From Gemmobacter caeni (lineage in GTDB: Bacteria; Pseudomonadota; Alphaproteobacteria; Rhodobacterales; Rhodobacteraceae): a stretch of 64,000 bases of DNA. This document shows, one piece after another, positions 7,809-38,737 of this stretch. Location of the stretch: contig NZ_QBKP01000003.1 of assembly GCF_003054195.1 (NCBI RefSeq), positions 248,001-312,000 on the forward strand. The letters are read 5' to 3'. Made by a program: the position numbers and the translations under genes. Within the stretch, counting starts at the first letter, position 1, and the number at the start of each line of letters is the position of its first letter. Below the pieces are notes generated by a model. The model did not search any database. It was not told the DNA's origin and saw only the letters and a program-made list of their open reading frames with translations.

Positions 7809-8615
7809 ATGATGACCGTGATAGCCCCCGATCTTTCGGCCGACCTGGTTTCGGTTGCCCATGAGATGGCGGAGGCCGGGCGCAAGGCGATCCTGCCGCA
7901 TTTCCGCAGTGTCGGTTTGACAGCGGACAGCAAGGAAACCGTGCGATTTGATCCAGTTACGGTGGCTGACCGGGCGGCAGAGGTCGCGATGCGCGCGGTG
8001 CTGGCACAGCGGCGACCGCAGGATGCGATCCTCGGAGAGGAGATGGGGCAGCAGGCCGGCAGCAGCGGGCTGACCTGGGTGCTGGACCCCATTGATGGAA
8101 CCCGTGCCTTTCTGGCGGGGATGCCCACCTGGGGTGTTCTGATCGCGGTGGCGGGCGCGGAAATGCGGCCGCTTTATGGCCTGATCGACCAGCCCTATAT
8201 CGCGGAACGTTTCGAGGGCGGGCTTGGCCTGGCCCGGATGCAGGGGCCGGGCGGCAGCCGTGCGCTGGCCACGCGCCCGGCCCGGCCGCTGGACGAATGC
8301 ATCATCATGTCGACTTTCCCCGAAGTCGGCAGCGCGGAGGAGGGGGCCGCCTTCCATCGTCTTGCCTCACAGTGCCGCCTGACGCGCTATGGGGCGGATT
8401 GCTACGCCTATGCCCTGCTGGCGGCGGGGCATATCGACCTTGTGGTCGAGGCCGGGTTGCAAACCTATGATGTCCAGGCCCCGATCGCGGTGATCGAGGC
8501 CGCTGGCGGGGTCGTCACCGACTGGACGGGGGCACGCGCCGATATGGGCGGGCGGCTGCTGGCGGCCTCATCTCCCGAGGTCCATGCGGCGGCGCTCGCT
8601 GCACTCAGAGGTTGA
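7809..8615 (+). CDS. hisN: Inositol monophosphatase-family phosphatase, HisN (histidinol-phosphatase) type
   Basis: 268 residues. The metal-binding signatures are present: GEE at about 76-78, DPIDGT at 93-98 followed by RAFLAGMPTWGVLIA, and the C-terminal aspartate motif in YDVQAPIAVIEAAGG. The RAFL..P.WG variant after DGT is typical of HisN rather than of true inositol phosphatases or CysQ. It would remove phosphate from histidinol phosphate using Mg2+. Two adjacent ATGs exist; the second (7812) has the better spacing to AGGAGAG. No his genes are nearby, so the pathway assignment rests on family resemblance alone. Confidence 0.75.
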   Translation: MMTVIAPDLSADLVSVAHEMAEAGRKAILPHFRSVGLTADSKETVRFDPVTVADRAAEVAMRAVLAQRRPQDAILGEEMGQQAGSSGLTWVLDPIDGTRAFLAGMPTWGVLIAVAGAEMRPLYGLIDQPYIAERFEGGLGLARMQGPGGSRALATRPARPLDECIIMSTFPEVGSAEEGAAFHRLASQCRLTRYGADCYAYALLAAGHIDLVVEAGLQTYDVQAPIAVIEAAGGVVTDWTGARADMGGRLLAASSPEVHAAALAALRG

Positions 8616-8736
8616 AAAGCCGCTTGCTGCATCTGCACAATCTGCGCTAGGTTTCGGGCGACGTCGCGAGTCCTTCCCCCCTTCTGTCGCACGTCCTCGT
8701 CTGTACCGAAGGGGCGCCAGAGGGGGAGGCGCCATC

Positions 8737-10077
8737 ATGCCTGAAATTCTTGTTCGCAATGCCGATGTCCTTGTGACCATGGACGGCACCCGCCGCGAGA
8801 TCGCGGGCGGTGATCTGTTGATGCGGGACGGTGTGATCGTTGCCGTCGGGCAGGGGTTGACCACCTCAGGCATGATTGTCGAGGCGCGGGGCTGTGTGGT
8901 GACGCCCGGTCTGGTGAACACGCATCATCACCTTTATCAGACGCTGACGCGGGTGGTGCCGGGCGGGCAGGATGCGCTGCTGTTCGGCTGGCTGAAGACG
9001 CTGTACCCGATCTGGGCGCGTTTCGGGCCGGAGGAGATGTTCGTCTCTGCCCGGATCGGGCTTGCGGAACTGGCGCTTTCAGGTTGCACGCTGACCTCGG
9101 ATCACCTGTATCTGTACCCCAACGGCGCGCGGCTGGATGACACGATTGCCGCCGCCCAAGAGGTCGGGCTGCGTTTCCACCCCACGCGCGGCGCCATGAG
9201 CATTGGTGAAAGCGCAGGCGGCCTGCCGCCCGACAGTCTGGTGGAGCGTGAGGCCGCTATCCTGGAGGACAGCATCCGCGTCGTCGATGCTTTCCACGAT
9301 CCGCGCGAGGGCGCGATGGTGCGTGTGGGGCTGGCGCCCTGTTCTCCCTTCTCGGTCAGTCGTGATCTGATGCGCGAGGCGGCGGTTCTGGCGCGCGACA
9401 AGGGGGTGATGTTGCACACCCATCTGGCCGAGAATGACGAGGATATCGCCTATAGCCTCGCGCAGTTCGGCTGCCGCCCCGGCCAATATGCCGAGGATCT
9501 GGGCTGGACCGGCCCCGATGTCTGGCATGCGCATTGCGTGAAGCTGGATGGCGACGAGATCGGGCTGTTTGCGCGCAGCGCCACCGGGGTCGCGCATTGC
9601 CCTTGTTCCAACTGCCGACTGGGCAGCGGTATCGCGCCGGTGCGGGCGATGCGGGATGCGGGCGTGAAGGTTGGGCTGGGCGTCGATGGTTCCGCCTCGA
9701 ATGACGCGGGCAATCTGGTGGCCGAGGCGCGGCAGGCGCTTTTGTTGCAGCGGGTTGCGCGCGGGGCTGATGCGATGAGCGCGCGCGAGGCGCTGGAGAT
9801 TGCCACGCTGGGCGGCGCGAAGGTACTGGGGCGCGGCGATTGCGGCTCGCTGGAGCCGGGCAAGCGCGCGGATCTCGCGATCTGGGACATGCGCGGGATC
9901 GAGGCGGCGGGCGCCTGGGACCCGGTGGCGGCGCTGATGCTTTGTGGGCCGACGCGGGTGCGCGACCTGTTCGTCGAGGGGCGGCAGGTTGTGCGCGACG
10001 GTCAGATGGCAACGCTGGACCTGCCGCGGGCCATCGAGCAGCAGAACCGGCTGGCGCGGCGTCTGGCGGGGCTGTGA
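8737..10077 (+). CDS. 8-oxoguanine deaminase (amidohydrolase family)
   Basis: 446 residues, TrzN/AtzB branch of the amidohydrolase superfamily. Metal ligands are visible in NTHHHLYQ (HxH after strand 1), HTHLAEND, the histidine of WHAHCVKL and the aspartate of GLGVDGSASND. The stretch HCPCSNCRLGSGIAPVR matches the signature of bacterial 8-oxoguanine deaminases, which hydrolyse 8-oxoguanine to urate and ammonia. Hydroxydechloroatrazine hydrolase is the main alternative. The start is the ATG after AGGGGGAGG. A guanine deaminase lies 450 bases away in convergent orientation, consistent with purine-base salvage or degradation. Confidence 0.8.
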   Translation: MPEILVRNADVLVTMDGTRREIAGGDLLMRDGVIVAVGQGLTTSGMIVEARGCVVTPGLVNTHHHLYQTLTRVVPGGQDALLFGWLKTLYPIWARFGPEEMFVSARIGLAELALSGCTLTSDHLYLYPNGARLDDTIAAAQEVGLRFHPTRGAMSIGESAGGLPPDSLVEREAAILEDSIRVVDAFHDPREGAMVRVGLAPCSPFSVSRDLMREAAVLARDKGVMLHTHLAENDEDIAYSLAQFGCRPGQYAEDLGWTGPDVWHAHCVKLDGDEIGLFARSATGVAHCPCSNCRLGSGIAPVRAMRDAGVKVGLGVDGSASNDAGNLVAEARQALLLQRVARGADAMSAREALEIATLGGAKVLGRGDCGSLEPGKRADLAIWDMRGIEAAGAWDPVAALMLCGPTRVRDLFVEGRQVVRDGQMATLDLPRAIEQQNRLARRLAGL

Positions 10078-10136
10078 ACGAAGCCGCTTGCGGCCTGCCG
10101 CGGCCTGAGGCATCACCGGGAAAAGCGGAGGGTTCC

Positions 10137-10454
10137 ATGCGCCACGATTACAAATCCCAGCAGGCCGAGACCTTTGAAAGTTTCGAGGCTTTCTCGGCGG
10201 ATGCGCCGGCCGAGGCGGTCATCACCTATCAGTTCTATCCCGAGGATGTGGACGCGAACTGGGATGGGGTGCAGAAAGCCTTGCAGGCCAAGGGCTTCCG
10301 CACCAACCGGGATGACGAGGACGAGTTGCTGGATGCGCTGGTCGGTCCGGTGAAGATCGACGCCGAGACGATCTGGAAGTTCGAGAAGCTGGCCACCGAA
10401 ATCGCGCTGGAATTCAATTTCACCCCGGATGGCTGGGGCCTGCTGGAAGAGTGA
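10137..10454 (+). CDS. RraB-family protein (putative ribonuclease E inhibitor)
   Basis: 105 residues, acidic. The pattern ANWDGVQKALQAKGFRTNRDDED, then WKFEKLATEIALEFNFTPDGWG, follows the RraB/DUF1260 family, whose enterobacterial member binds RNase E and alters its substrate choice. The start ATG follows GGAGGG. It is 59 bases downstream of the 8-oxoguanine deaminase, possibly co-transcribed, and is followed by a hairpin that belongs to a repeated intergenic element. The genuine rne gene is elsewhere in this window (59459-62305). Whether alphaproteobacterial members act on RNase E is not established here. Confidence 0.7.
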   Translation: MRHDYKSQQAETFESFEAFSADAPAEAVITYQFYPEDVDANWDGVQKALQAKGFRTNRDDEDELLDALVGPVKIDAETIWKFEKLATEIALEFNFTPDGWGLLEE

Positions 10455-29039: not shown

Positions 29040-29123
29040 GCGGGTGTGGTGGAATGGTAGACACAGGCGACTTAAAATCGCCAGGGGTATCCCGTGCGGG
29101 TTCGAGCCCCGCCACCCGCACCA
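29040..29123 (+). tRNA. tRNA-Leu (anticodon UAA)
   Basis: The acceptor stem GCGGGTG (29040-29046) pairs with CACCCGC (29113-29119), with discriminator A and an encoded CCA at 29121-29123. The anticodon arm GGCGACTTAAAATCGCC has TAA in the loop, reading UUA/UUG codons. A long variable arm and the T-arm GCGGGTTCGAGCCCCGC complete a class II tRNA. No duplicated 3' end or integrase is near. Confidence 0.95.
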
Positions 29124-30010: not shown

Positions 30011-30571
30011 TCAGCCCCGGTCGCGCCACTCGCGCCCCAGCAGGGCATAGATGAACTCGTCGCCCCAGACGCCTTCGAAGAAGTCGTTCTCCACCAGATG
30101 CGCCTCCCGGCGCAGGCCAAGACGGTCGGCAAGGCGCCAGGAAGCCTCGTTGCGGCTGGCGATGCGGGCGAAGATGCGATGCAGGCCGCAGGGACCGAAG
30201 CCAAGCGCCAGCATGGCCCCGGCGGCCTCGGTCGCGTAGCCCTGTCCGGCGTAATCGGGGTGGAAGATATATCCAAGCTCGCCCTGACGCGCGATGCGGT
30301 TGGCATATTTCAGCACCACCTCACCCAGCAGAGCCCCGTCCGTCTGGCGGCAGACCGCCAGCCGGAAGGCATCGCCCTCGTCCTCGAACCGCGGATCGCA
30401 GGCGCGGGCGAATTGCTGGGCCAGCGCCTCGCCCTCGGGCGGGGCGGTGTAAAGATGGCGATAAACCTCGGCCCGTCGGTGACAATCGGCATAGGCCGCG
30501 AAATCCTCAGGGACAAAACGGCGCAGCGAAAGCCGCGCCGTCTGGTGGGGCAGGGGCGGCAGCCCGCTCAT
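30011..30571 (-). CDS. GNAT family N-acetyltransferase (RimJ/RimL type)
   Basis: 186 residues. TARLSLRRFVPEDFAAY, LGYIFHPDYAGQGYATEAAGAMLALGF (in pieces the acetyl-CoA site) and IFARIASRNEASWRLADRLGLRREAHL are the hallmarks of the Acetyltransf_3 family acting on protein N-termini or small amines. It is the last gene of the TRAP transporter operon and its ATG overlaps the dctM stop by four bases, so it may modify the transported compound or simply be appended to the operon. Confidence 0.85.
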   Translation of the reverse strand: MSGLPPLPHQTARLSLRRFVPEDFAAYADCHRRAEVYRHLYTAPPEGEALAQQFARACDPRFEDEGDAFRLAVCRQTDGALLGEVVLKYANRIARQGELGYIFHPDYAGQGYATEAAGAMLALGFGPCGLHRIFARIASRNEASWRLADRLGLRREAHLVENDFFEGVWGDEFIYALLGREWRDRG

Positions 30572-31887
30572 GGCAGCATCTGCGAGGGCAGGAACAGCGT
30601 CAGCCCCGGGATCAGCAGCAGAAGCAGCAGGCGCAGGATGTCCATCATCCAGAAGGGCGTCACCCCGCGGAAGATCGTCGCGGTGGACACATTGCCGACC
30701 ACACCTTTCAGGATGAACACGTTCAGCCCGACCGGCGGGGTGATCAGGCTGATTTCCGTCACCACCACCACGATGATGCCGAACCATACCGGGTTGAAGC
30801 CCATGCCGGTGACCAGCGGAAAGAAGATCGGCACCGTCAGCAGCAGCATCGACAGGCTTTCGAACACGCAGCCAAGCGCCACATAGATCAGCACGATCAG
30901 CGCCATGACCATCCAGGGGGCGAGGCCCATCTCCATCACGCCATTGGCCAGCGCCTCGGGCAGGCCCGCGATATTGACGAAGTTCGAGAAGATCCACGCC
31001 CCGATCAGTACCGCGAACAGCGAAGCGGTGGTCAGCGCGGTTTCCTCCAGCACCTCGCGGATGTCGGCGAGCGTCAGACCGCCGCGCGCCAGCGCGATCA
31101 GGAAGGCGCCCATCGCCCCCATGCCCGCCGCTTCGGTCGGCGAGAAGGTCAGATGGATCGGCCAGACATCCAGCGCGCCGTAGAGCCCGCCAATCACCAG
31201 CCCGAACAAGAGCAGCACCGACCAGACACCGCGCAGCGCCGCCAGACGTTGCCCCCAGGTCGCGCGCGGTCCCGCCGGACCGGCAGCAGGATTGCGCAGG
31301 ACCGAGATATAGACGGCAGCCAGGTAAAACAGGATACCCAGTGCGCCGGGGATGATCCCGGCGATGAACAACTGCCCGATAGAGGTTTCGGTCAGCAGCC
31401 CGTAGATCACGAGGATGACCGAGGGCGGGATCAGGATGCCCAGCGTGCCGCCGGCCGCGATGGAGGCGGTGGAAAGGCTGTCGGCATAGCCGTATTTCCG
31501 CATCTCGGGCATGGCGACCTTCGACATGGTGGCGGCGGTCGCCAGAGACGAGCCGCAGATTGCGGCGAACCCGCCGCAGGCCACGATGGTCGCCATGGCA
31601 AGGCCACCCCGGAAATGGCCCAGGAAGGCGTTCGAGACCTGATAAAGCTCGCGGCTGATGCCGCCCTTGTTGACGAACAGCCCCATCAGGATGAACAGTG
31701 GCACCACCGACAGGCCATAATCCTGGCTGGTGTCGATCACCAGCCGGGCCGCCATGGAGATGGCGCCGCGAAAGTTGGTTTCCAGCGCATAGCCCACAAG
31801 ACCGACCAGACCCATGGCAAAGGCGATGGGCATGCGCAGCAACACAAGCACCAGAACGGCAGCGAAGCCGATGAGCGAGTCAGTCAT
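30568..31887 (-). CDS. dctM: TRAP transporter large permease (DctM)
   Basis: 439 residues with about 12 membrane segments. Typical blocks are VLVLLRMPIAFAMGLVGLVGY, PLFILMGLFVNKGGISRELY, ICGSSLATAATMSKVAMPEMRKYGYA and LIPPSVILVIYG. It is the ion-coupled transport subunit, working with DctQ and the periplasmic DctP. It overlaps dctQ by 8 bases at its start and the acetyltransferase by 4 at its end. Confidence 0.93.
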   Translation of the reverse strand: MTDSLIGFAAVLVLVLLRMPIAFAMGLVGLVGYALETNFRGAISMAARLVIDTSQDYGLSVVPLFILMGLFVNKGGISRELYQVSNAFLGHFRGGLAMATIVACGGFAAICGSSLATAATMSKVAMPEMRKYGYADSLSTASIAAGGTLGILIPPSVILVIYGLLTETSIGQLFIAGIIPGALGILFYLAAVYISVLRNPAAGPAGPRATWGQRLAALRGVWSVLLLFGLVIGGLYGALDVWPIHLTFSPTEAAGMGAMGAFLIALARGGLTLADIREVLEETALTTASLFAVLIGAWIFSNFVNIAGLPEALANGVMEMGLAPWMVMALIVLIYVALGCVFESLSMLLLTVPIFFPLVTGMGFNPVWFGIIVVVVTEISLITPPVGLNVFILKGVVGNVSTATIFRGVTPFWMMDILRLLLLLLIPGLTLFLPSQMLP

Positions 31888-32389
31888 GCCCGGCCTCCCA
31901 CAGCAGGCGCGGGGCCAGCCAGATCATCAGGCCGCGTACAATCAGCACGGCAGCGGTGAGAAAGGTCATAATTGCGATGAACCATGTGACGGTGGAAACG
32001 GGGATGGCGAGGTACTCGGTCACGTCGCCATAGCTGCGGGCGCGTTCGGCCAGATCGACGATGCGCCAGGCAGGCCACAGCAGCATGACCCCCGAAAGGG
32101 TGGTGACGATGCCGTCGCGCAGACGTTCAAGATGCAGCCGGGCGAAGATCGGGTCCAGCAGGTCCACCGCGATATGGCCGCCGCGCCCCGAAAGAACGGG
32201 CAGCGAGGCGAAGACGATGATGGCGATGGCGATGCGGGTCAGTTCGGTGGCGGCCTCGATGGGCGCGCTGAAGGCCGACCGCAGCACCACATCGCAGAAG
32301 GTCAGCACCATGAGCGCGAACAGGGTGACAGAAGCAAGAAGGACAGGCAGCACCGAAAGGCGCCGCATGAGGCGGATCAAGGGTATCAT
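31880..32389 (-). CDS. dctQ: TRAP transporter small permease (DctQ)
   Basis: 169 residues with four predicted helices (SVTLFALMVLTFCDVVLR, ELTRIAIAIIVFASLPVL, TLSGVMLLWPAWRIV, VTWFIAIMTFLTAAVLIV). GGHIAVDLL is the conserved DctQ motif. It lies between dctP and dctM in the standard order. Confidence 0.9.
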   Translation of the reverse strand: MIPLIRLMRRLSVLPVLLASVTLFALMVLTFCDVVLRSAFSAPIEAATELTRIAIAIIVFASLPVLSGRGGHIAVDLLDPIFARLHLERLRDGIVTTLSGVMLLWPAWRIVDLAERARSYGDVTEYLAIPVSTVTWFIAIMTFLTAAVLIVRGLMIWLAPRLLWEAGHD

Positions 32390-32442: not shown

Positions 32443-33465
32443 TCAGTTGCCGGCGGCGGCGGTCATCTCTGTCATGACCATATCATAGGCTGCCTGTGCG
32501 TCGATGCCTGCGGCAGAAATCTGCGCCAGAACCTTTTCGCGCACCCGCGCGGCCATTTCGGCGAAGGCAGCCTGATCTTCCGCGCTGGCCGTGACGATCT
32601 TGTTGTCGGCCGCCGCCTCGGTCGCGGCGCGGGCGTCATTGTCGCTCTGGTCCCAGACGGCACCCATCATGCGGCTGGCCGGTTCGCCGAACACCTTTTC
32701 GTCCAGCGCCTTCTGCACATCCTCGGGCAGGCTGTCGAAACGTTCCTGGCTCATCAGCACCGCGAAGGAGCCGCGATAGAAGCCGCCGGGCATTTCATAG
32801 ACGTTCTTCGCCACTTCGTTCAGCTTGAAGCTGACACGTTCGCCCATGTTCATTGCCACCGCGTCCGCGGCGCCGGAGGCCAGCGTCTCATAGACCTTGG
32901 GCGCGGGCACCTGAATGCCGACGAGGCCAAGTTCGGCGCCCACTTCGGCCGAAACGCCGCCGCCGAGGCGGGTTTTCAGACCCTTCAGATCGGCCAGCGT
33001 ATTGATTTCCTTGCTGGAGTGGATCTGGCCCGGACCATGGGTGGTCAGCGCGATCAGCTTGACGCCACGATGTTCGTCCAACTTGTCAAGGAAAGCCTTC
33101 TGCACATGCCAGTAGGCAACCGAGGCGGCCTCCGCATTGCCCGGATAGCCCGGCAGTTCAATGAGCTGAGTGCCGATGAACCGGCCCGGCTGGTAGCCGT
33201 GGAAGATCACCGTCATGTCGGCAGCACCATCCATCACCAGATCCATCTGGGCGGGCGGCGGGGCGAGGCCAAGCTTGATCTCGCCGGTGACCTGGCCGTC
33301 GGTGGCCTCTTCCATCATCTTCACCAGCCCTTCCAGCATGCCGGTGTTGATCGGGTGGGTCGGCGGCAGCCAGCTCGAGATGGTCAGCGTCTCGGTGGCA
33401 TGGGCGGCGGCGGCGGTGCAGACGGCAACGGCGGCGCTGGCAAGAAGGCGTGCAATCCTGGTCAC
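32443..33465 (-). CDS. dctP: TRAP transporter substrate-binding protein (DctP)
   Basis: 340 residues starting at a GTG with AGGGAG in front. Signal peptide RLLASAAVAVCTAAAAHA. The DctP fold is shown by SSWLPPTHPINTGMLEGLVKMMEEATDGQV, LADLKGLKTRLGGGVSAEVGAELG (the arginine that binds substrate carboxylates is expected in this region) and SGAADAVAMNMG. The substrate is probably an organic acid; the adjacent Rieske oxygenase block suggests an aromatic or cyclic one. A MarR-type operator lies 52 bases upstream. Confidence 0.9.
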   Translation of the reverse strand: MTRIARLLASAAVAVCTAAAAHATETLTISSWLPPTHPINTGMLEGLVKMMEEATDGQVTGEIKLGLAPPPAQMDLVMDGAADMTVIFHGYQPGRFIGTQLIELPGYPGNAEAASVAYWHVQKAFLDKLDEHRGVKLIALTTHGPGQIHSSKEINTLADLKGLKTRLGGGVSAEVGAELGLVGIQVPAPKVYETLASGAADAVAMNMGERVSFKLNEVAKNVYEMPGGFYRGSFAVLMSQERFDSLPEDVQKALDEKVFGEPASRMMGAVWDQSDNDARAATEAAADNKIVTASAEDQAAFAEMAARVREKVLAQISAAGIDAQAAYDMVMTEMTAAAGN

Positions 33466-33516: not shown

Positions 33517-33532
33517 ATATGCAATTTCATGT
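33517..33532. promoter_or_regulatory. Putative MarR operator upstream of dctP
   Basis: ATATGCAATTTCATGT matches 14 of 16 positions of the perfect palindrome found at 34227-34242 in front of the oxygenase operon. It lies between marR and dctP, in the promoter region of the TRAP operon. A further half-like TTTTTCATGT occurs at about 33562-33571. Confidence 0.6.
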
Positions 33533-33633: not shown

Positions 33634-34122
33634 TCAGGCGTCCAGCGTCTCGGCCGGGGCCAGCCGGTCGATCAGCGCGCGCAGGGCTTGTTTGATTCGG
33701 GCGCCGTCGCTGCCTGCGAGGATATTCAGCAGATCAGCTTCGTGCCGACGGGCCTCGATCACCAGCGCCTCGGCCAGCGCGCGGCCTTCGGACGACAGGT
33801 AAACCCGCGTGCGGCGGCGATCCTCGGGGTCGCCGCGCCGGGTGACGAGGCCGCGATCCTCCATCTGCGCGATGATCTTGGTCAGGCGCGACTGTTCGAT
33901 AAGCGCGAATTGCGCCAGTCGGGTCACCATGGCGCCGTCACGGTCATGCAGACACGCCAGCACCCGCCATTCGGGCACGCGAAGACCTTCTTCGCGCACC
34001 CGCGCGTGAAACTGCGCGCTGGCGGCCTCGCTCGCGGCGGCCAGCAAATACAGCAGATAGCCCGAAACGAAAGTGTCTTTCAGTCCGGTCTCTGTCTCGG
34101 GCGCGGGGGTGGTGTCGGTCAT
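33634..34122 (-). CDS. MarR family transcriptional regulator
   Basis: 162 residues. The winged-helix domain is seen in RVPEWRVLACLHDRDG, TRLAQFALIEQSRLTKIIAQMEDRGLVTR and the wing RRGDPEDRRRTRVYLSSEG. Regulators of this type usually repress catabolic genes until an aromatic ligand binds. It is divergent from the oxygenase operon and lies just upstream of the TRAP operon; both have matching palindromic sites, which makes it the obvious candidate regulator of both. Confidence 0.88.
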   Translation of the reverse strand: MTDTTPAPETETGLKDTFVSGYLLYLLAAASEAASAQFHARVREEGLRVPEWRVLACLHDRDGAMVTRLAQFALIEQSRLTKIIAQMEDRGLVTRRGDPEDRRRTRVYLSSEGRALAEALVIEARRHEADLLNILAGSDGARIKQALRALIDRLAPAETLDA

Positions 34123-34214: not shown

Positions 34215-34243
34215 TTGACGAAATTTACATGAAATTTCATGTT
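34215..34243 (+). promoter_or_regulatory. Oxygenase operon promoter with overlapping palindromic operator
   Basis: TTGACG at 34215-34220 is a good -35, with a weak -10 (CATGTT, 34238-34243) 17 bases on. The perfect 16-base palindrome ACATGAAATTTCATGT occupies 34227-34242, covering the spacer and -10. A bound MarR dimer would block polymerase. It is 22 bases upstream of the GTG start of the reductase gene. Confidence 0.65.
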
Positions 34244-34264: not shown

Positions 34265-35215
34265 GTGCACAGCATCAAAGCCAGAATCACGGCCATCCAG
34301 CCACTGACCAACCGTATTCGCGAGTTCCGCCTGACCGGCGTGGCCGAGCGCCCGTTGCCGGGATGGGAGCCGGGCGCCCATGTCCGCGTCTCGCTGCCCG
34401 ATGGCGACAGCCGGGCCTATTCGCTGATCGCGCTGGCCCCCGTGCCGGAGGCACCGGCGGAGTATCGCATCGCGGTGCAACTGGAACCCGAGGGCAAAGG
34501 TGGCTCGCGCTTCATGCACGGGCTGGCGGAAGGGGCGGAGGTCACGCTCAGCCTGCCAAAATGCGATTTTCCGCTGGTGGCCGGGGCGCCTGCTGCTCTG
34601 CTGGCGGGTGGCATCGGCGTGACGCCGATGATTTCCATGGCCACCGCGCTGAAGGCGGCGGGCACACCCTTTGAATTCCATTACGCCGGGCGCAGTGCCG
34701 GGCTGATGGCCTATGCGTCCGCTCTGGCGGAAACCTTCGGCCCGGCCTTCACCGCGCATTGCGACGACGATCCGGCCACCGCGCTGAATCTGGACGCGCT
34801 GCTTGCCGCACTGGGCGACCGGCACATCTATGCCTGCGGACCGCGCGGCATGCTCGACGCGCTGCGCCAGAAGGCCGAGGCGGCGGGCATCCCGGCCAGC
34901 CGTGTACATTTCGAACTGTTCGACGCCCCGCAGGCCGAGGCGGGCGACACCGCCTTCGAGGTGGAGCTTGCCTCCACCGGCCAGACCTTCACCATCCCGC
35001 CCGACCGCAGCATCATCGAGGTGCTGGAGGAAGGCGGCGTCGATCTGGTCTACGACTGCCAGCGCGGCGATTGCGGCATCTGTCAGTGCGGCGTGATCTC
35101 GGGCGAACCCGATCACCGCGACGTGGTGCTGTCCGAGGCCGAGCGCGCGGCCGGGAAGCTCATGCAAATCTGCGTCAGCCGGGCGAAATCGCTGCGGCTG
35201 GTGCTTGATCTCTGA
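34265..35215 (+). CDS. PDR/VanB-family oxygenase reductase
   Basis: 316 residues starting at GTG after AGGGGAGGAC. Order of domains: ferredoxin-reductase-type flavin-binding barrel (SRAYSLIALAPVPE, FMN/FAD site), NAD domain (LLAGGIGVTPMISMATAL, IYACGPRGMLDALR), and a C-terminal plant-type 2Fe-2S ferredoxin domain with C-x4-C-x2-C in YDCQRGDCGICQCG and the last cysteine in MQICVSRA. This is the phthalate dioxygenase reductase / vanillate demethylase reductase layout. It passes electrons from NAD(P)H to the Rieske oxygenase encoded immediately downstream. Confidence 0.9.
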   Translation: MHSIKARITAIQPLTNRIREFRLTGVAERPLPGWEPGAHVRVSLPDGDSRAYSLIALAPVPEAPAEYRIAVQLEPEGKGGSRFMHGLAEGAEVTLSLPKCDFPLVAGAPAALLAGGIGVTPMISMATALKAAGTPFEFHYAGRSAGLMAYASALAETFGPAFTAHCDDDPATALNLDALLAALGDRHIYACGPRGMLDALRQKAEAAGIPASRVHFELFDAPQAEAGDTAFEVELASTGQTFTIPPDRSIIEVLEEGGVDLVYDCQRGDCGICQCGVISGEPDHRDVVLSEAERAAGKLMQICVSRAKSLRLVLDL

Positions 35216-35226
35216 GGGAGGAAGCC

Positions 35227-36567
35227 ATGACACGTTATACCGGCGACAAGGCGGCGGTCGCGGCTCTGGTGCAGGGGCATCAGGTGCATCGCGACGTCTA
35301 TATCGACCCCGAAGTCTACCGGCTGGAGATGAAGCATCTCTTTGCCAATGCCTGGATCTTCGTGGGCCATGACAGCCAGACCCCGAACAAGGGCGATTAC
35401 TTCACCACCATGGTCGGCGATCAGCCGGTCATCCAGGTGCGGCATACGGATGGCGAGATCTACGTTCTTTACAACCGCTGTCCGCACAAGGGCACCAAGC
35501 TGGTGATCGACCGCACCGGCAACACCGGCAAATTCTTCCGCTGCCCCTATCACGCCTGGTCGTTCAAGACCGATGGCTGCCTTCTGGCGATCCCGCTGAA
35601 GAAGGGTTACGAAAATACGGGGTTCGAGCAGACCGATGCGGGCCATGGCATGAAATCCGTGGGCGCGGTGATGAACTACCGGGGTTTCATCTTCTGCCGT
35701 CTGGCGGAAGAGGGGATTTCCTTCGAGGATTTCTTCGGCGGCTCGTTGTCTTCCATCGACAATATGGTGGACCGCTCGCCCGCACAGCGGCTGGAGGTGG
35801 CGGGGCCGCCGCTCCGCTACATGCACAAGTGCAACTGGAAGATGCTGGTCGAGAACCAGACCGACACCTGTCACCCGATGGTCGCGCATGAAAGCTCGGC
35901 CGGGACGGCGGTGCGGCTGTGGAAGGAACTCGACATGCCCGAGGGCACGCCGCTGCCCCCGGCGATGGAGATCATCGCCCCCTTCACGTCGCCCTATGAA
36001 TTCTTTGAGAATATGGGCATCCGTACCTGGCCCAATGGCCATGGCCATACCGGCGTGCATCATTCGATTCATTCGAACTACACCGAGATTCCGGGCTATC
36101 TGGACAAGCTGTCGGCCACCCATGGCGAGGAAAAGGCCCGCGCCATTCTGGGCGAGAACCGGCACAACACGGTCTATTTCCCGAACATCATGATCAAGGG
36201 CCCGATCCAGCAACTGCGCGTGTTCATTCCGCTCGCCGCTGACAAGACGCTGGTGGAAAGCTATATCTACCGGCTGGTCGATGCACCCGAGGAGCTGACC
36301 GCGCGCACCGCCATGTATAACCGCATGATCAACGCCCCCACCTCGATCGTCGGCCATGACGATCTGGAGATGTATGAGCGTGCGCAGGAAGGCTTGCAGG
36401 CCGATGGAATGGAATGGGTGAACATCCAGCGCCTTTACGACCCGGACGAGGATTTCGAACAGGAAAGCGTGCTGAACGGCACCACGGAAAAACAGATGCG
36501 CAACCAGTTCCATGCCTGGGTGAAGTTCATGACCCATGACATGCCGGCACGGGAGGCCGCGGAATGA
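35227..36567 (+). CDS. Aromatic ring-hydroxylating dioxygenase, alpha subunit
   Basis: 446 residues. Rieske centre CPHKG (C85, H87) and CPYHAW (C106, H109). The mononuclear iron site shows D213, H216 and H221 in ENQTDTCHPMVAH, the D-x2-H-x4-H arrangement, preceded by the bridging-type glutamate/asparagine context. A second carboxylate ligand is expected in the C-terminal third. The length and the presence of a beta subunit gene overlapping by four bases indicate an alpha3beta3 oxygenase. The substrate is not evident; the two-subunit form with a PDR-type reductase is unusual compared with the single-subunit phthalate group. Confidence 0.92.
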   Translation: MTRYTGDKAAVAALVQGHQVHRDVYIDPEVYRLEMKHLFANAWIFVGHDSQTPNKGDYFTTMVGDQPVIQVRHTDGEIYVLYNRCPHKGTKLVIDRTGNTGKFFRCPYHAWSFKTDGCLLAIPLKKGYENTGFEQTDAGHGMKSVGAVMNYRGFIFCRLAEEGISFEDFFGGSLSSIDNMVDRSPAQRLEVAGPPLRYMHKCNWKMLVENQTDTCHPMVAHESSAGTAVRLWKELDMPEGTPLPPAMEIIAPFTSPYEFFENMGIRTWPNGHGHTGVHHSIHSNYTEIPGYLDKLSATHGEEKARAILGENRHNTVYFPNIMIKGPIQQLRVFIPLAADKTLVESYIYRLVDAPEELTARTAMYNRMINAPTSIVGHDDLEMYERAQEGLQADGMEWVNIQRLYDPDEDFEQESVLNGTTEKQMRNQFHAWVKFMTHDMPAREAAE

Positions 36568-37043
36568 GCGTGACGAAGGACGACATCATCGACTTCCTCT
36601 ATGACGAGGCGCGGATGCTGGACGAGGGGCGCTATGACGACTGGCTGGCGCTCTGGCTGAAGGACGGGCACTACTGGATGCCGCTCGACTACAAGCAGAC
36701 TGATCCGCTGAACGTGACCTCGCTGATGTATGAGGATATCTTTATGCTCAAGGTCCGGGTGGAGCGTCTGAACGGCGCGCGCACCTTCAGCCAGAAACCG
36801 AAAAGCCGCTGTCATCATGTGTTGCAACGCCCCTGGGTGGACGAGATCGATCTTGAGAGCGGGCGCATCCGCACCACGACGCAGATGCACTATATCGAGA
36901 CGCGGCTGGATGAGCAGATGCTGCTGGCGCTGACCGCGCAGCATGATCTGGCGCTGATTGACGGGCGGTTGCGCATCGCCAACAAACGGGTCGACATCCT
37001 CAATTGCGATGCCGCCTTCGGCAATATCCAGTTGCTGCCATGA
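36564..37043 (+). CDS. Aromatic ring-hydroxylating dioxygenase, beta subunit
   Basis: 159 residues of the Ring_hydroxyl_B (SnoaL/NTF2-like) family. The N-terminal DDIIDFLYDEARMLDEGRYDDWLALW and the DYKQTDPLN/ MLKVRVERL segments match small subunits of ring-hydroxylating dioxygenases, which have a structural role. ATGA overlaps at both ends show strict coupling with the alpha subunit and the following SDR. Confidence 0.9.
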   Translation: MSVTKDDIIDFLYDEARMLDEGRYDDWLALWLKDGHYWMPLDYKQTDPLNVTSLMYEDIFMLKVRVERLNGARTFSQKPKSRCHHVLQRPWVDEIDLESGRIRTTTQMHYIETRLDEQMLLALTAQHDLALIDGRLRIANKRVDILNCDAAFGNIQLLP

Positions 37044-37768
37044 GCGCGGATTTCACCGCCGTCATCACCGGCGCGAGCAAGGGCATCGGCGCCGATCTGG
37101 CCGGGCGTCTGCTGGCGCGCGGCTACCGGGTGATCAACCTGTCGCGCGGCCCGGCCGAATTCAGCCATGACCGGCTGGAGAATATGTCGGTTGATCTGCT
37201 GGACAGCGCGGCTGTGACCGAGGCCGCCGCCGCCATCGCCGCCCGGCATGAGGTGACACATGTCATCCACAACGCCGGGCTGGTCTGGCCGAAGCTGGTG
37301 GAGGAGGCGCAACCCGCCGACATCACCGGCCTTGCGCAGTTGCACCTTGGCGCGGCGCTGTCGCTGGTGCAGGCCGCCTTGCCCGCGATGAAGGCGCGGC
37401 GCTTCGGGCGTATCCTGTTCAATGGCTCGCGCGCGGCGCTGGGCGTGCCGACGCGCACCGCCTATTCCGCCAGCAAGGCGGGGATGATCGGCATGGCGCG
37501 AACCTGGGCGCTGGAACTGGCGCCGCATGGCATCACCGTCAATGTGGTGGCGCCCGGACCGATCCAGACCGACAATTTCTGGGGCATCGTGCCCAAGGGC
37601 AGCGCACGCGAGGCGGAACTGGCGAAACGCATTCCGGTCGGGCGGCTGGGCACGGTCGAGGATGTCAGCAACGCCTTCCTGTTCTTCTGTGATCCGGCCT
37701 CTGGCTTCGTCACCGGCCAGACGCTTTATGTCTGCGGTGGCGCGAGCGTGGGAAGCATGAGCCTGTAG
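37040..37768 (+). CDS. SDR family oxidoreductase (putative dihydrodiol dehydrogenase)
   Basis: 242 residues. Cofactor loop TGASKGIGADLAG at about 10-22, NAG in HNAGLVWP, catalytic serine in LFNGSRAALG and YSASKAGMIGMART with the YxxxK motif. In the last position of an oxygenase operon and translationally coupled to the beta subunit, it most probably re-aromatises the cis-dihydrodiol produced by the oxygenase. No ring-cleavage enzyme follows. murB begins 42 bases downstream. Confidence 0.85.
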   Translation: MSADFTAVITGASKGIGADLAGRLLARGYRVINLSRGPAEFSHDRLENMSVDLLDSAAVTEAAAAIAARHEVTHVIHNAGLVWPKLVEEAQPADITGLAQLHLGAALSLVQAALPAMKARRFGRILFNGSRAALGVPTRTAYSASKAGMIGMARTWALELAPHGITVNVVAPGPIQTDNFWGIVPKGSAREAELAKRIPVGRLGTVEDVSNAFLFFCDPASGFVTGQTLYVCGGASVGSMSL

Positions 37769-37810
37769 CCATGGCTTGCGCGGGGCAGGGCAGGCGGCTA
37801 CCAGAGAGCT

Positions 37811-38737
37811 ATGACCACGCTTCCCACCCCGCGCGGCGCGCTGACGCCGGACCGTCCGCTTTCCGATCTGACCTGGCTGCGCGTCGGCGGCCCGGCCGAC
37901 TGGCTGTTCCAGCCCGCCGACGAGGCCGATCTGGCCGAATTTCTGGCGGTGTTGCCGCCCGGGGTGCCGGTGTTCCCGATGGGGGTCGGGTCGAACCTCA
38001 TCGTCCGTGATGGCGGTATCCGGGCAGTGGTGATCCGCCTCGGGCGCGGTTTCAACGGTATCACGGTAGAGGGCGGACGCGTCACGGCGGGGGCCGCCGC
38101 GCTGGACGCCCATGTTGCGCGGAAAGCCGCCGAGGCCGGGCGCGACCTGACCTTCCTGCGCACTATCCCCGGTTCTATCGGCGGGGCGGTGCGGATGAAC
38201 GCGGGCTGCTACGGCCACTACGTCGCGGATTTTCTGGAGGAAATCCGCATTGTCACGCGGTCGGGGCAGATTGAAACCCTGCCCGCCGCTGCGCTGAACC
38301 TGCGCTATCGCCAATCCGACCTGCCGGATGGCGCCGTGGTGATCGGTGCCACCTTTAACGCGCCTGCGGGCGATCCTGCCGCGCTGGCGGCGCGGATGGA
38401 GGATCAGTTGGCCAAACGCGACGCGAGCCAGCCCACCAAGGACCGCAGCGCCGGTTCCACCTTTCGCAACCCGCTGGGGCGCAGCTCCACCGGCGCGGCG
38501 GATGACACGCATGAGCTGAAAGCCTGGAAGGTGATTGATGAGGCTGGCATGCGCGGCGCCCGCATCGGCGGCGCGCAAATGAGCGAGATGCATTCCAACT
38601 TCCTGATCAACGCCGGAGGGGCGACAGCCGCCGATCTGGAAAATCTGGGTGAGGAAGTACGAAAAAGGGTTTTCCAACACAGCGGGATCACGCTAGAGTG
38701 GGAAATCATGCGCGTCGGCGAACCGGCGACAAAATAA
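37811..38737 (+). CDS. murB: UDP-N-acetylenolpyruvoylglucosamine reductase
   Basis: 308 residues, type II-like MurB. The FAD-binding part has [31 protein letters not shown] and [20 protein letters not shown]; the C-terminal domain has STFRNPLG with the catalytic serine and [30 protein letters not shown]. It reduces UDP-GlcNAc-enolpyruvate to UDP-MurNAc, the second committed step of wall synthesis. It opens the division and cell-wall cluster, which continues with ddl. Confidence 0.95.

Follow-up and report, generated by a model that had tools for sequence, protein, structure and literature searches.

What does the four-gene block at positions 34265-37768 of this window oxidise, and does it belong to a system already known? 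The window is the whole stretch of Gemmobacter caeni DNA analysed, 64,000 nucleotides long. A sequence-only reading had found here a hybrid Rieske oxygenase of unknown substrate and the window's best candidate for an undescribed catabolic system. We believe, judging from sequence and with a probability of roughly 0.9, that the locus is of a known kind, the upper-pathway operon of iad (auxin degradation). The argument starts from the identity of the oxygenase, reductase and regulator, the conservation of the oxygenase pocket and of the operator, and the presence of iadF-I homologues elsewhere in the genome.

Gene layout

The reductase, alpha, beta and SDR genes are all open frames on the plus strand. 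They are closely packed and flanked by a divergent MarR gene and TRAP transporter genes.

30568-31887, minus strand: TRAP transporter large permease (DctM); ORF and homologues at iad loci
31880-32389, minus strand: TRAP small permease (DctQ); ORF, named by its position between dctM and dctP alone
32443-33465, minus strand: TRAP solute-binding protein (DctP), candidate IAA importer; Pfam DctP, 1.4e-30
33519-33530, no strand: candidate second IadR operator ATGCAATTTCAT, upstream of dctP; one mismatch to the palindrome
33634-34122, minus strand: MarR-family regulator, IadR-like
34229-34240, no strand: candidate IadR operator, perfect palindrome ATGAAATTTCAT, before iadC; conserved across loci
34265-35215, plus strand: IadC-like PDR-type reductase (flavin, NAD, C-terminal 2Fe-2S); ORF, Pfam and PDB matches
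35227-36567, plus strand: IadD-like Rieske oxygenase alpha subunit; PDB matches and pocket residues
36564-37043, plus strand: IadE-like oxygenase beta subunit; PDB match, 4-base overlap with alpha
37040-37768, plus strand: SDR dehydrogenase, proposed IadJ; adh_short and gene order, 4-base overlap with beta

The reductase starts with the GTG at 34265, behind GGAGGGGAGG; an alternative in-frame ATG at 34229 falls within the palindrome and is less likely. Pfam gives Rieske and Ring_hydroxyl_A for alpha, Ring_hydroxyl_B for beta, a NAD-binding domain followed by a C-terminal Fer2 (residues 235-308) for the reductase, and adh_short for the SDR. Much of the sequence-only reading therefore holds: the ORFs and Pfam bear out its alpha/beta oxygenase, its PDR/VanB-type domain order and its SDR, no ring-cleavage gene is found among the four genes, and the pathway it expected to continue elsewhere has homologues of iadF-I on another contig. 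The presence of a beta subunit sets the enzyme apart from the single-subunit phthalate type, which has none.

The oxygenase and its reductase

Among solved structures, the top matches of alpha, beta and reductase are IadD, IadE and IadC. Alpha is 56.1% identical to Variovorax IadD (PDB 9o71/7yls, 1e-169), with the next family of solved proteins far behind at 1e-37. Beta is 47.4% identical to IadE (PDB 7yls_A, 8.5e-43), and the reductase is 51.6% identical to IadC (7ylr, 7.5e-87), ahead of the phthalate dioxygenase reductase 2pia at 6.3e-55. Reductase cysteines C265, C270, C273 and C303 align with cysteines 279, 284, 287 and 317 of 7ylr, and two of the reported IadC flavin contacts that were checked are changed (His59 to Ala, Arg89 to Lys). 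Alpha keeps 13 of the 14 published metal and pocket residues of IadD, including F251, H311, K322, R329 and Y362; the sole change, Leu211 to Gln, is shared by 91 of 94 alignment rows.

Variovorax IadCDE is described as a structurally solved oxygenase of the auxin IAA, and its IadC as PDR-like and similar to phthalate dioxygenase reductase (PMC10374108, PMC9613470, PMC12633357). The pairing of alpha and beta with a PDR-type reductase, which had seemed an unusual hybrid, is therefore already established. Nor does the substrate look as obscure as it first did, with alpha by far closest to an IAA enzyme among solved proteins. Alpha and IadD also share a clade, and the same reductase pairing, apart from two other PDR-linked oxygenases; the tree is a quick one without bootstrap and with long-branch warnings, as is the iadG tree below.

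Could the enzyme be an undescribed ring hydroxylase whose substrate is not IAA but another aromatic or heterocyclic acid? We consider this improbable. An identity of 56% does allow a substrate shift, and pocket position 211 differs from Variovorax IadD. However, the other 13 pocket and metal residues are kept, whereas the PDR-linked oxygenases of pCAR1 (L012) and a Variovorax plasmid (L011), which have the same reductase-alpha-beta order and 43% alpha identity, carry N251 and H322 instead of F251 and K322. The neighbours on pCAR1 differ too, being an isochorismatase and a dienelactone hydrolase. The regulator here is closest to an IAA-binding MarR, and the gene set matches intact iad loci. A novel substrate class was rejected in view of the PDB matches to IadD, IadE and IadC.

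The regulator and its candidate operators

The MarR protein is 65% identical (91/140) to MarR_3CDH of Ruegeria pomeroyi, which is described as binding IAA at 0.24 uM. All three carboxylate contacts of MarR_73 are kept (S35, H39 and R53 in ungapped coordinates). Two indole-ring contacts are changed: A18 is Tyr, as in 3CDH, and V65 is Phe, where 3CDH has Leu. The top matches of this MarR are what we take to be iad-type MarRs.

That bears on a further alternative, an iac-type locus taking IAA to catechol, which we regard as the least probable of all. Such loci also carry homologues of iacC, D, E and F and usually a MarR. Against it, the top solved matches are IadC, D and E, the MarR matches the iad type, and most relatives have iadF-I in the operon.

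The palindrome is perfect before iadC and has one mismatch before the TRAP genes. At one mismatch or fewer it occurs at only three places in the 5.14 Mb genome; two are at this locus and the third (C17:103455) lies among ORFs. All 53 of the divergent intergenic regions between MarR and iadC carry a like site (0.4 expected), or 51 regions once two duplicate pairs are removed. In 49 of 72 loci a site within two mismatches also lies in the 220 nt that precede the dctP match, again with 0.4 expected. In the R. pomeroyi locus fetched (L004), neither a site within two mismatches nor a MarR match was found. The MarR would bind the palindromes before iadC and dctP.

Homologues of dctM, 78-87% identical, adjoin iad genes at several loci, among them L005, L006, L013, L038 and L044, and homologues of dctP, 63-83% identical, adjoin MarR/iadC or iadJ in many relatives. 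IAA would be the substrate of the transporter. Our literature search found no papers on IAA-binding TRAP proteins.

The dehydrogenase

The SDR, with motifs GASKGIG and YSASK, is 51.7-80.8% identical (median 74.5%) to the SDR found at the operon's end in 62 intact loci. It is probably IadJ, the tie to Variovorax IadJ being gene order and annotation only, and the window genes would therefore convert IAA to dioxindole-3-acetate. A 2025 preprint describes IadCDE as a monooxygenase whose product hydrates, the hydrate then being oxidised to dioxindole-3-acetate by the dehydrogenase IadJ (PMC12633357). The cis-dihydrodiol product first suggested for this locus is close in form only. In split loci without F-I, J stays directly behind C-D-E, in line with a role for IadJ right after IadCDE, as the preprint proposes.

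The split arrangement

The unusual feature of this locus is that the later steps of the pathway lie elsewhere in the genome, and this split arrangement is recurrent. In 62 of 93 loci scored, iadF-I sit in the operon between E and J (C-D-E-F-G-H-I-J, J being the homologue of our SDR). The window has no match to iadF-I, and its beta and SDR genes overlap. Divergent homologues of iadF, G, H and I are found together on another contig (C12:40644-49477), with 47-63% identity to the Sulfitobacter proteins.

Do these unlinked genes complete IAA degradation? An alternative, which we regard as possible though unlikely, is that the operon oxidises IAA and the C12 genes form a separate pathway for some other indole or oxindole compound; the upper operon would then serve detoxification or signal quenching, ending at dioxindole-3-acetate. 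A LysR gene and TRAP genes of its own accompany the C12 cluster, along with an Asp/Glu-racemase-like gene, a flavin monooxygenase and two acyl-CoA ligases; the region scanned shows no convincing IadR site. In the tree its iadG forms a long branch that does not join the main clade of the iad G proteins and lies close to a second G of Sulfitobacter THAF37; we are unsure of its orthology with iad G, and because of this divergence the cluster could serve another substrate. In Variovorax, moreover, iadCDE alone is described as enough to clear IAA and undo the inhibition of root growth (PMC10374108, PMC9613470, PMC12633357).

Against this alternative, iadG lies outside the operon in all 14 non-intact genomes tested (on another contig in 10, nearby in 4), whereas the operon's iadG is the only copy in 27 of 29 intact genomes, with a second in just two. 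This contrast suggests that the unlinked genes stand in for those absent from the operon. Clusters of G-H-I with a ligase and a LysR gene at their head turned up in 6 of the 12 regions fetched, including one from Gemmobacter lutimaris, a close relative. In the genus, the same 2 of 11 genomes hold both alpha and the C12-type iadG; the two are close kin, so this counts once. Over 252 residues, the IadI of Roseibium aggregatum (L080) has the same sequence as the isatin hydrolase LaIHA (PDB 5NNB), which gives iadI an assayed function, and the IadI of our genome is 61.5% identical to LaIHA. We infer that the C12 cluster completes IAA degradation.

That the same operator also controls the C12 cluster was considered and is unsupported. 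Within two mismatches L028 has two sites, of which one lies 20 bases before an aldolase-like gene, and L029 has none; 6 of 200 shuffles had as many as L028.

A proposed pathway

With the upper-pathway iad reading, and with substrate and chemistry carried over by analogy from Variovorax, events would run as follows. The TRAP transporter probably takes up IAA, which would release the IadR-like MarR from the palindromes before iadC and dctP. IadC would hand electrons from NADH to IadDE, which would oxygenate the indole ring of IAA; hydration of the product and oxidation by the SDR (IadJ) would give dioxindole-3-acetic acid. The F-G-H-I homologues on the other contig would then carry out CoA activation, side-chain removal and isatin hydrolysis, the lower route passing from dioxindole to isatin and on to isatinate and an anthranilate-level product.

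More tentatively, auxin catabolism may come in two modules. An IAA-sensing MarR would run uptake and the oxidation as far as dioxindole-3-acetate. A separate, interchangeable lower module under LysR control (ligase, thiolase, SDR and isatin hydrolase), with its own importer, would take oxindole-level compounds from several sources. The split would have arisen on more than one occasion among the alphaproteobacteria, and in some lineages the chief use of the upper module may be to erase a signal from algae or plants.

Relation to described systems

The Variovorax iad locus, as described, shares the PDR-like reductase, the alpha/beta Rieske oxygenase, the dehydrogenase, the MarR and the active-site residues with ours, and has the ABC binding protein IadK2 where the window has TRAP transporter genes (PMC10374108, PMC9613470, PMC12633357). 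The window operon differs further in its lack of iadF-I and in the Gln at pocket position 211. The same C-D-E...J order is found on the R. pomeroyi DSS-3 megaplasmid (L004) and in other alphaproteobacteria (L005, L006, L013, L036), but these loci keep F-G-H-I between E and J and the window does not. In Sulfitobacter and Hoeflea loci, as here, dctM...dctP and MarR lie upstream of C-D-E and point the other way. A comparison with plasmid DNA gave 22 records, all at 60-80% identity.

Fragmented iad-like operons are described for Sphingopyxis and Sphingomonas, the Sphingopyxis strain being a degrader of IAA (PMC11630574); in that description they resemble our locus. Conway et al. (PMC9613470) report counts of iad-like loci in many genera. 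Our search, with most subscription journals outside it, found no roseobacter, marine or split iad loci in print beyond the Variovorax and plant-isolate work. What was an unknown oxygenase becomes an auxin degrader that can be tested, in a Gemmobacter-like alphaproteobacterium and not in the root bacteria on which the iad work was done. The remaining two Rieske alpha genes of the genome score best against the glycine betaine monooxygenase model, with scores under its cut-off.

Identity of the oxygenase

The four genes on the + strand at 34265-37768, overlapping or closely spaced, encode a PDR-type reductase, a Rieske alpha subunit, a Rieske beta subunit and an SDR; directly upstream, in the opposite orientation, lie genes for a MarR regulator and a TRAP transporter. 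We recover the same genes as the sequence-only reading, whose description of the locus (reductase, alpha, beta, SDR) was accurate. Among solved structures the alpha subunit has 9o71 and 7yls/8h2t as top matches at 1e-169; the family that follows scores 1e-37. The top match of the beta subunit is 7yls_A, partner chain of the alpha's match, and that of the reductase is 7ylr, above 2pia (phthalate dioxygenase reductase). Identities to those structures are 56.1% for alpha, 47.4% for beta and 51.6% for the reductase. Judging by near-identity, we take 7yls, 8h2t and 7ylr to be structures of IadD/E and IadC.

PMC12633357 gives 9O71 as Variovorax IadDE and also mentions an earlier near-identical structure. 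PMC10374108 describes structures of IadD/E and IadC; it reports that IadC is similar to PDR and that IadD/E together with IadC converts auxin (IAA). The pairing that the sequence-only reading held to be odd is therefore the documented one. The locus most likely encodes this known oxygenase system for auxin degradation, split in its arrangement here and probably served by the TRAP genes as importer.

PMC10374108 names 14 IadD residues, seven metal ligands and seven further pocket residues. Thirteen are identical in the window's alpha subunit; the exception is Leu211, replaced by Gln, and Gln stands at 211 in 91 of 94 aligned rows (the reference is among these rows, and the window and its kin appear in a few duplicates). 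Positions F251 and K322 discriminate, since both are changed in two more distant PDR-linked oxygenases. These alpha/beta enzymes (L011 10001-11257, a Variovorax plasmid; L012 8001-9296, pCAR1) carry N251 and H322 in the pocket, and they are better candidates than the window's enzyme for another, perhaps undescribed substrate. In the reductase R58, S92, F233 and the four cluster cysteines are conserved, and H59 and R89 are replaced.

Proposed pathway

In the preprint PMC12633357, IadCDE is proposed to act as a monooxygenase converting IAA to an epoxide-derived C10H9NO3, followed by hydration and oxidation by IadJ to dioxindole-3-acetate; the earlier PMC10374108 names the product oxIAA. The window's C, D and E with J would cover exactly the steps from IAA to dioxindole-3-acetate.

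Across 252 compared residues, the Roseibium aggregatum IadI shows no difference from LaIHA, whose isatin hydrolase activity has been assayed. This ties iadI to an assayed enzyme, and as a sequence match it fits the isatin step. That IadI (L080, 14813 onwards, strain IAM 12614) lies in an iad operon; LaIHA is PDB 5NNB. Of 90 loci scanned, 14 have an IorA-like gene close to alpha. Contig C12 of the window's own genome has an IorA gene too, along with a gene of the salicylyl-CoA 5-hydroxylase type that scores above its NCBIfam cut-off. In PMC9613470, ior genes are already indicated at known loci. We infer that isatinate could be carried on to a CoA ester. L029 4379-10016 and C12:20197-22431, which share a contig with iadF-I, encode an indolepyruvate oxidoreductase resembling IorA, another isatin-hydrolase-like protein, an FAD oxidoreductase of the CrtO kind and the hydroxylase-type protein. 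In Azospirillum thermophilum (L009), ior and hydroxylase genes of that kind flank iadCDE.

Regulator and candidate operators

The window's MarR is identical at 91 of 140 positions to 3CDH of Ruegeria pomeroyi, which is reported in PMC9613470 to bind IAA with a KD of 0.237 uM. The carboxylate contacts S28, H32 and R46 of Variovorax MarR_73 correspond to S35, H39 and R53, as mapped from ungapped match coordinates. The sequence ATGAAATTTCAT is exact at 34229-34240 and differs by a single mismatch at 33519-33530. Elsewhere in the genome just one more place matches it at one mismatch or fewer. Restricted to loci with MarR and iadC as divergent neighbours, the site is present at two mismatches or fewer in 53 of 53 (51 different, as L033 duplicates the window and L034 and L035 come from one genome), where 0.4 were expected from mononucleotide shuffles. 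Upstream of the dctP match, 49 of 72 loci have it at two mismatches or fewer within 220 nt, against 0.4 expected. In the fetched R. pomeroyi locus (L004) no site within two mismatches was found. We regard the two palindromes, on sequence grounds, as candidate operators.

Operon architecture

We scored 93 loci: the best 80 of 247 relatives from a scan of genome contigs, together with the window, two copies from its own genus and ten loci on plasmids. With letters F-J assigned by gene order and annotation, not by the Variovorax sequences, the order C-DE-FGHIJ occurs in 62 of the 93, and in one more cut at its end. J is the sole member of F-J found behind C-D-E in 13 rows; among them the window and L033 are identical, as are L034 and L035, while L079 and L082 have F-I just upstream. 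The other 17 are different forms, contig-end cuts or distant relatives. Mapped on the alpha tree, where many forks are weak, the 63 intact and 20 non-intact rows call for no fewer than 14 changes, a sign that such events recurred.

A Pantoea agglomerans plasmid (L010 9069-14843) has iadCDE-like genes; behind them come genes for an FAD oxidoreductase, an amidase and a transporter of aromatic amino acids, and F-J gave no match there. Two Sulfitobacter loci (L046, L049, about 8234-10338) have MarR, TRAP and iadD/E, with no iadC or iadJ match there; each of these genomes has another iad locus that is complete (L166, L165).

Location of candidate later genes

C12:40644-49477 (L028 6578-15504): cluster holding two F homologues besides those of G, H and I

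A LysR gene heads this cluster, which has genes for two IadF-like ligases, homologues of iadG, iadH and iadI, and genes for a protein resembling Asp/Glu racemases and for an LLM flavin monooxygenase. It may serve as a lower module, or else belong to an indole pathway of its own. All 14 genomes with non-intact loci searched have iadG at E<=1e-60, in a test leaving out L079, L082, L009 and L108. By the lengths of the contigs, ten of these iadG are on another contig, two of them in the second complete locus of the L046 and L049 genomes. The remaining four are from Paracoccus and follow iadJ at a distance of about 5 to 12 kb: those of L093 and L113 fall within the fetched locus, and those of L095 and L109, by record coordinates, shortly past its end. 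All 29 intact genomes searched gave a match to the iadG of the operon itself, and 2 of them also to a second, weaker iadG. A LysR-headed G-H-I cluster with a ligase is found in 6 of 12 fetched regions (L164 from G. lutimaris; L167-L171), while in L163 homologues of F, G, H and I occur with no LysR match. Within the genus the alpha gene occurs in 2 of 11 genomes and C12-type iadG in the same 2, the window's own genome and that of its close kin G. lutimaris. What counts against C12 replacing the missing genes is that its iadG does not group with the main clade of iad G proteins.

Genomic setting

29040-29123: tRNA-Leu (TAA), left of the locus
37769-37810: genus-variable boundary, right before murB

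The nearest named record to the window is Gemmobacter lutimaris (L035). Within about 11-13 kb upstream of murB, six fetched relatives have no match to the segment with the cpaB-type pilus gene, scoAB, TRAP and iad. Nine genus members lack iad; in the six of these that were fetched, the DNA begins to resemble the window at 37799-37831, just before murB; the iad locus is therefore on a genus-variable segment, ending between the SDR and murB.
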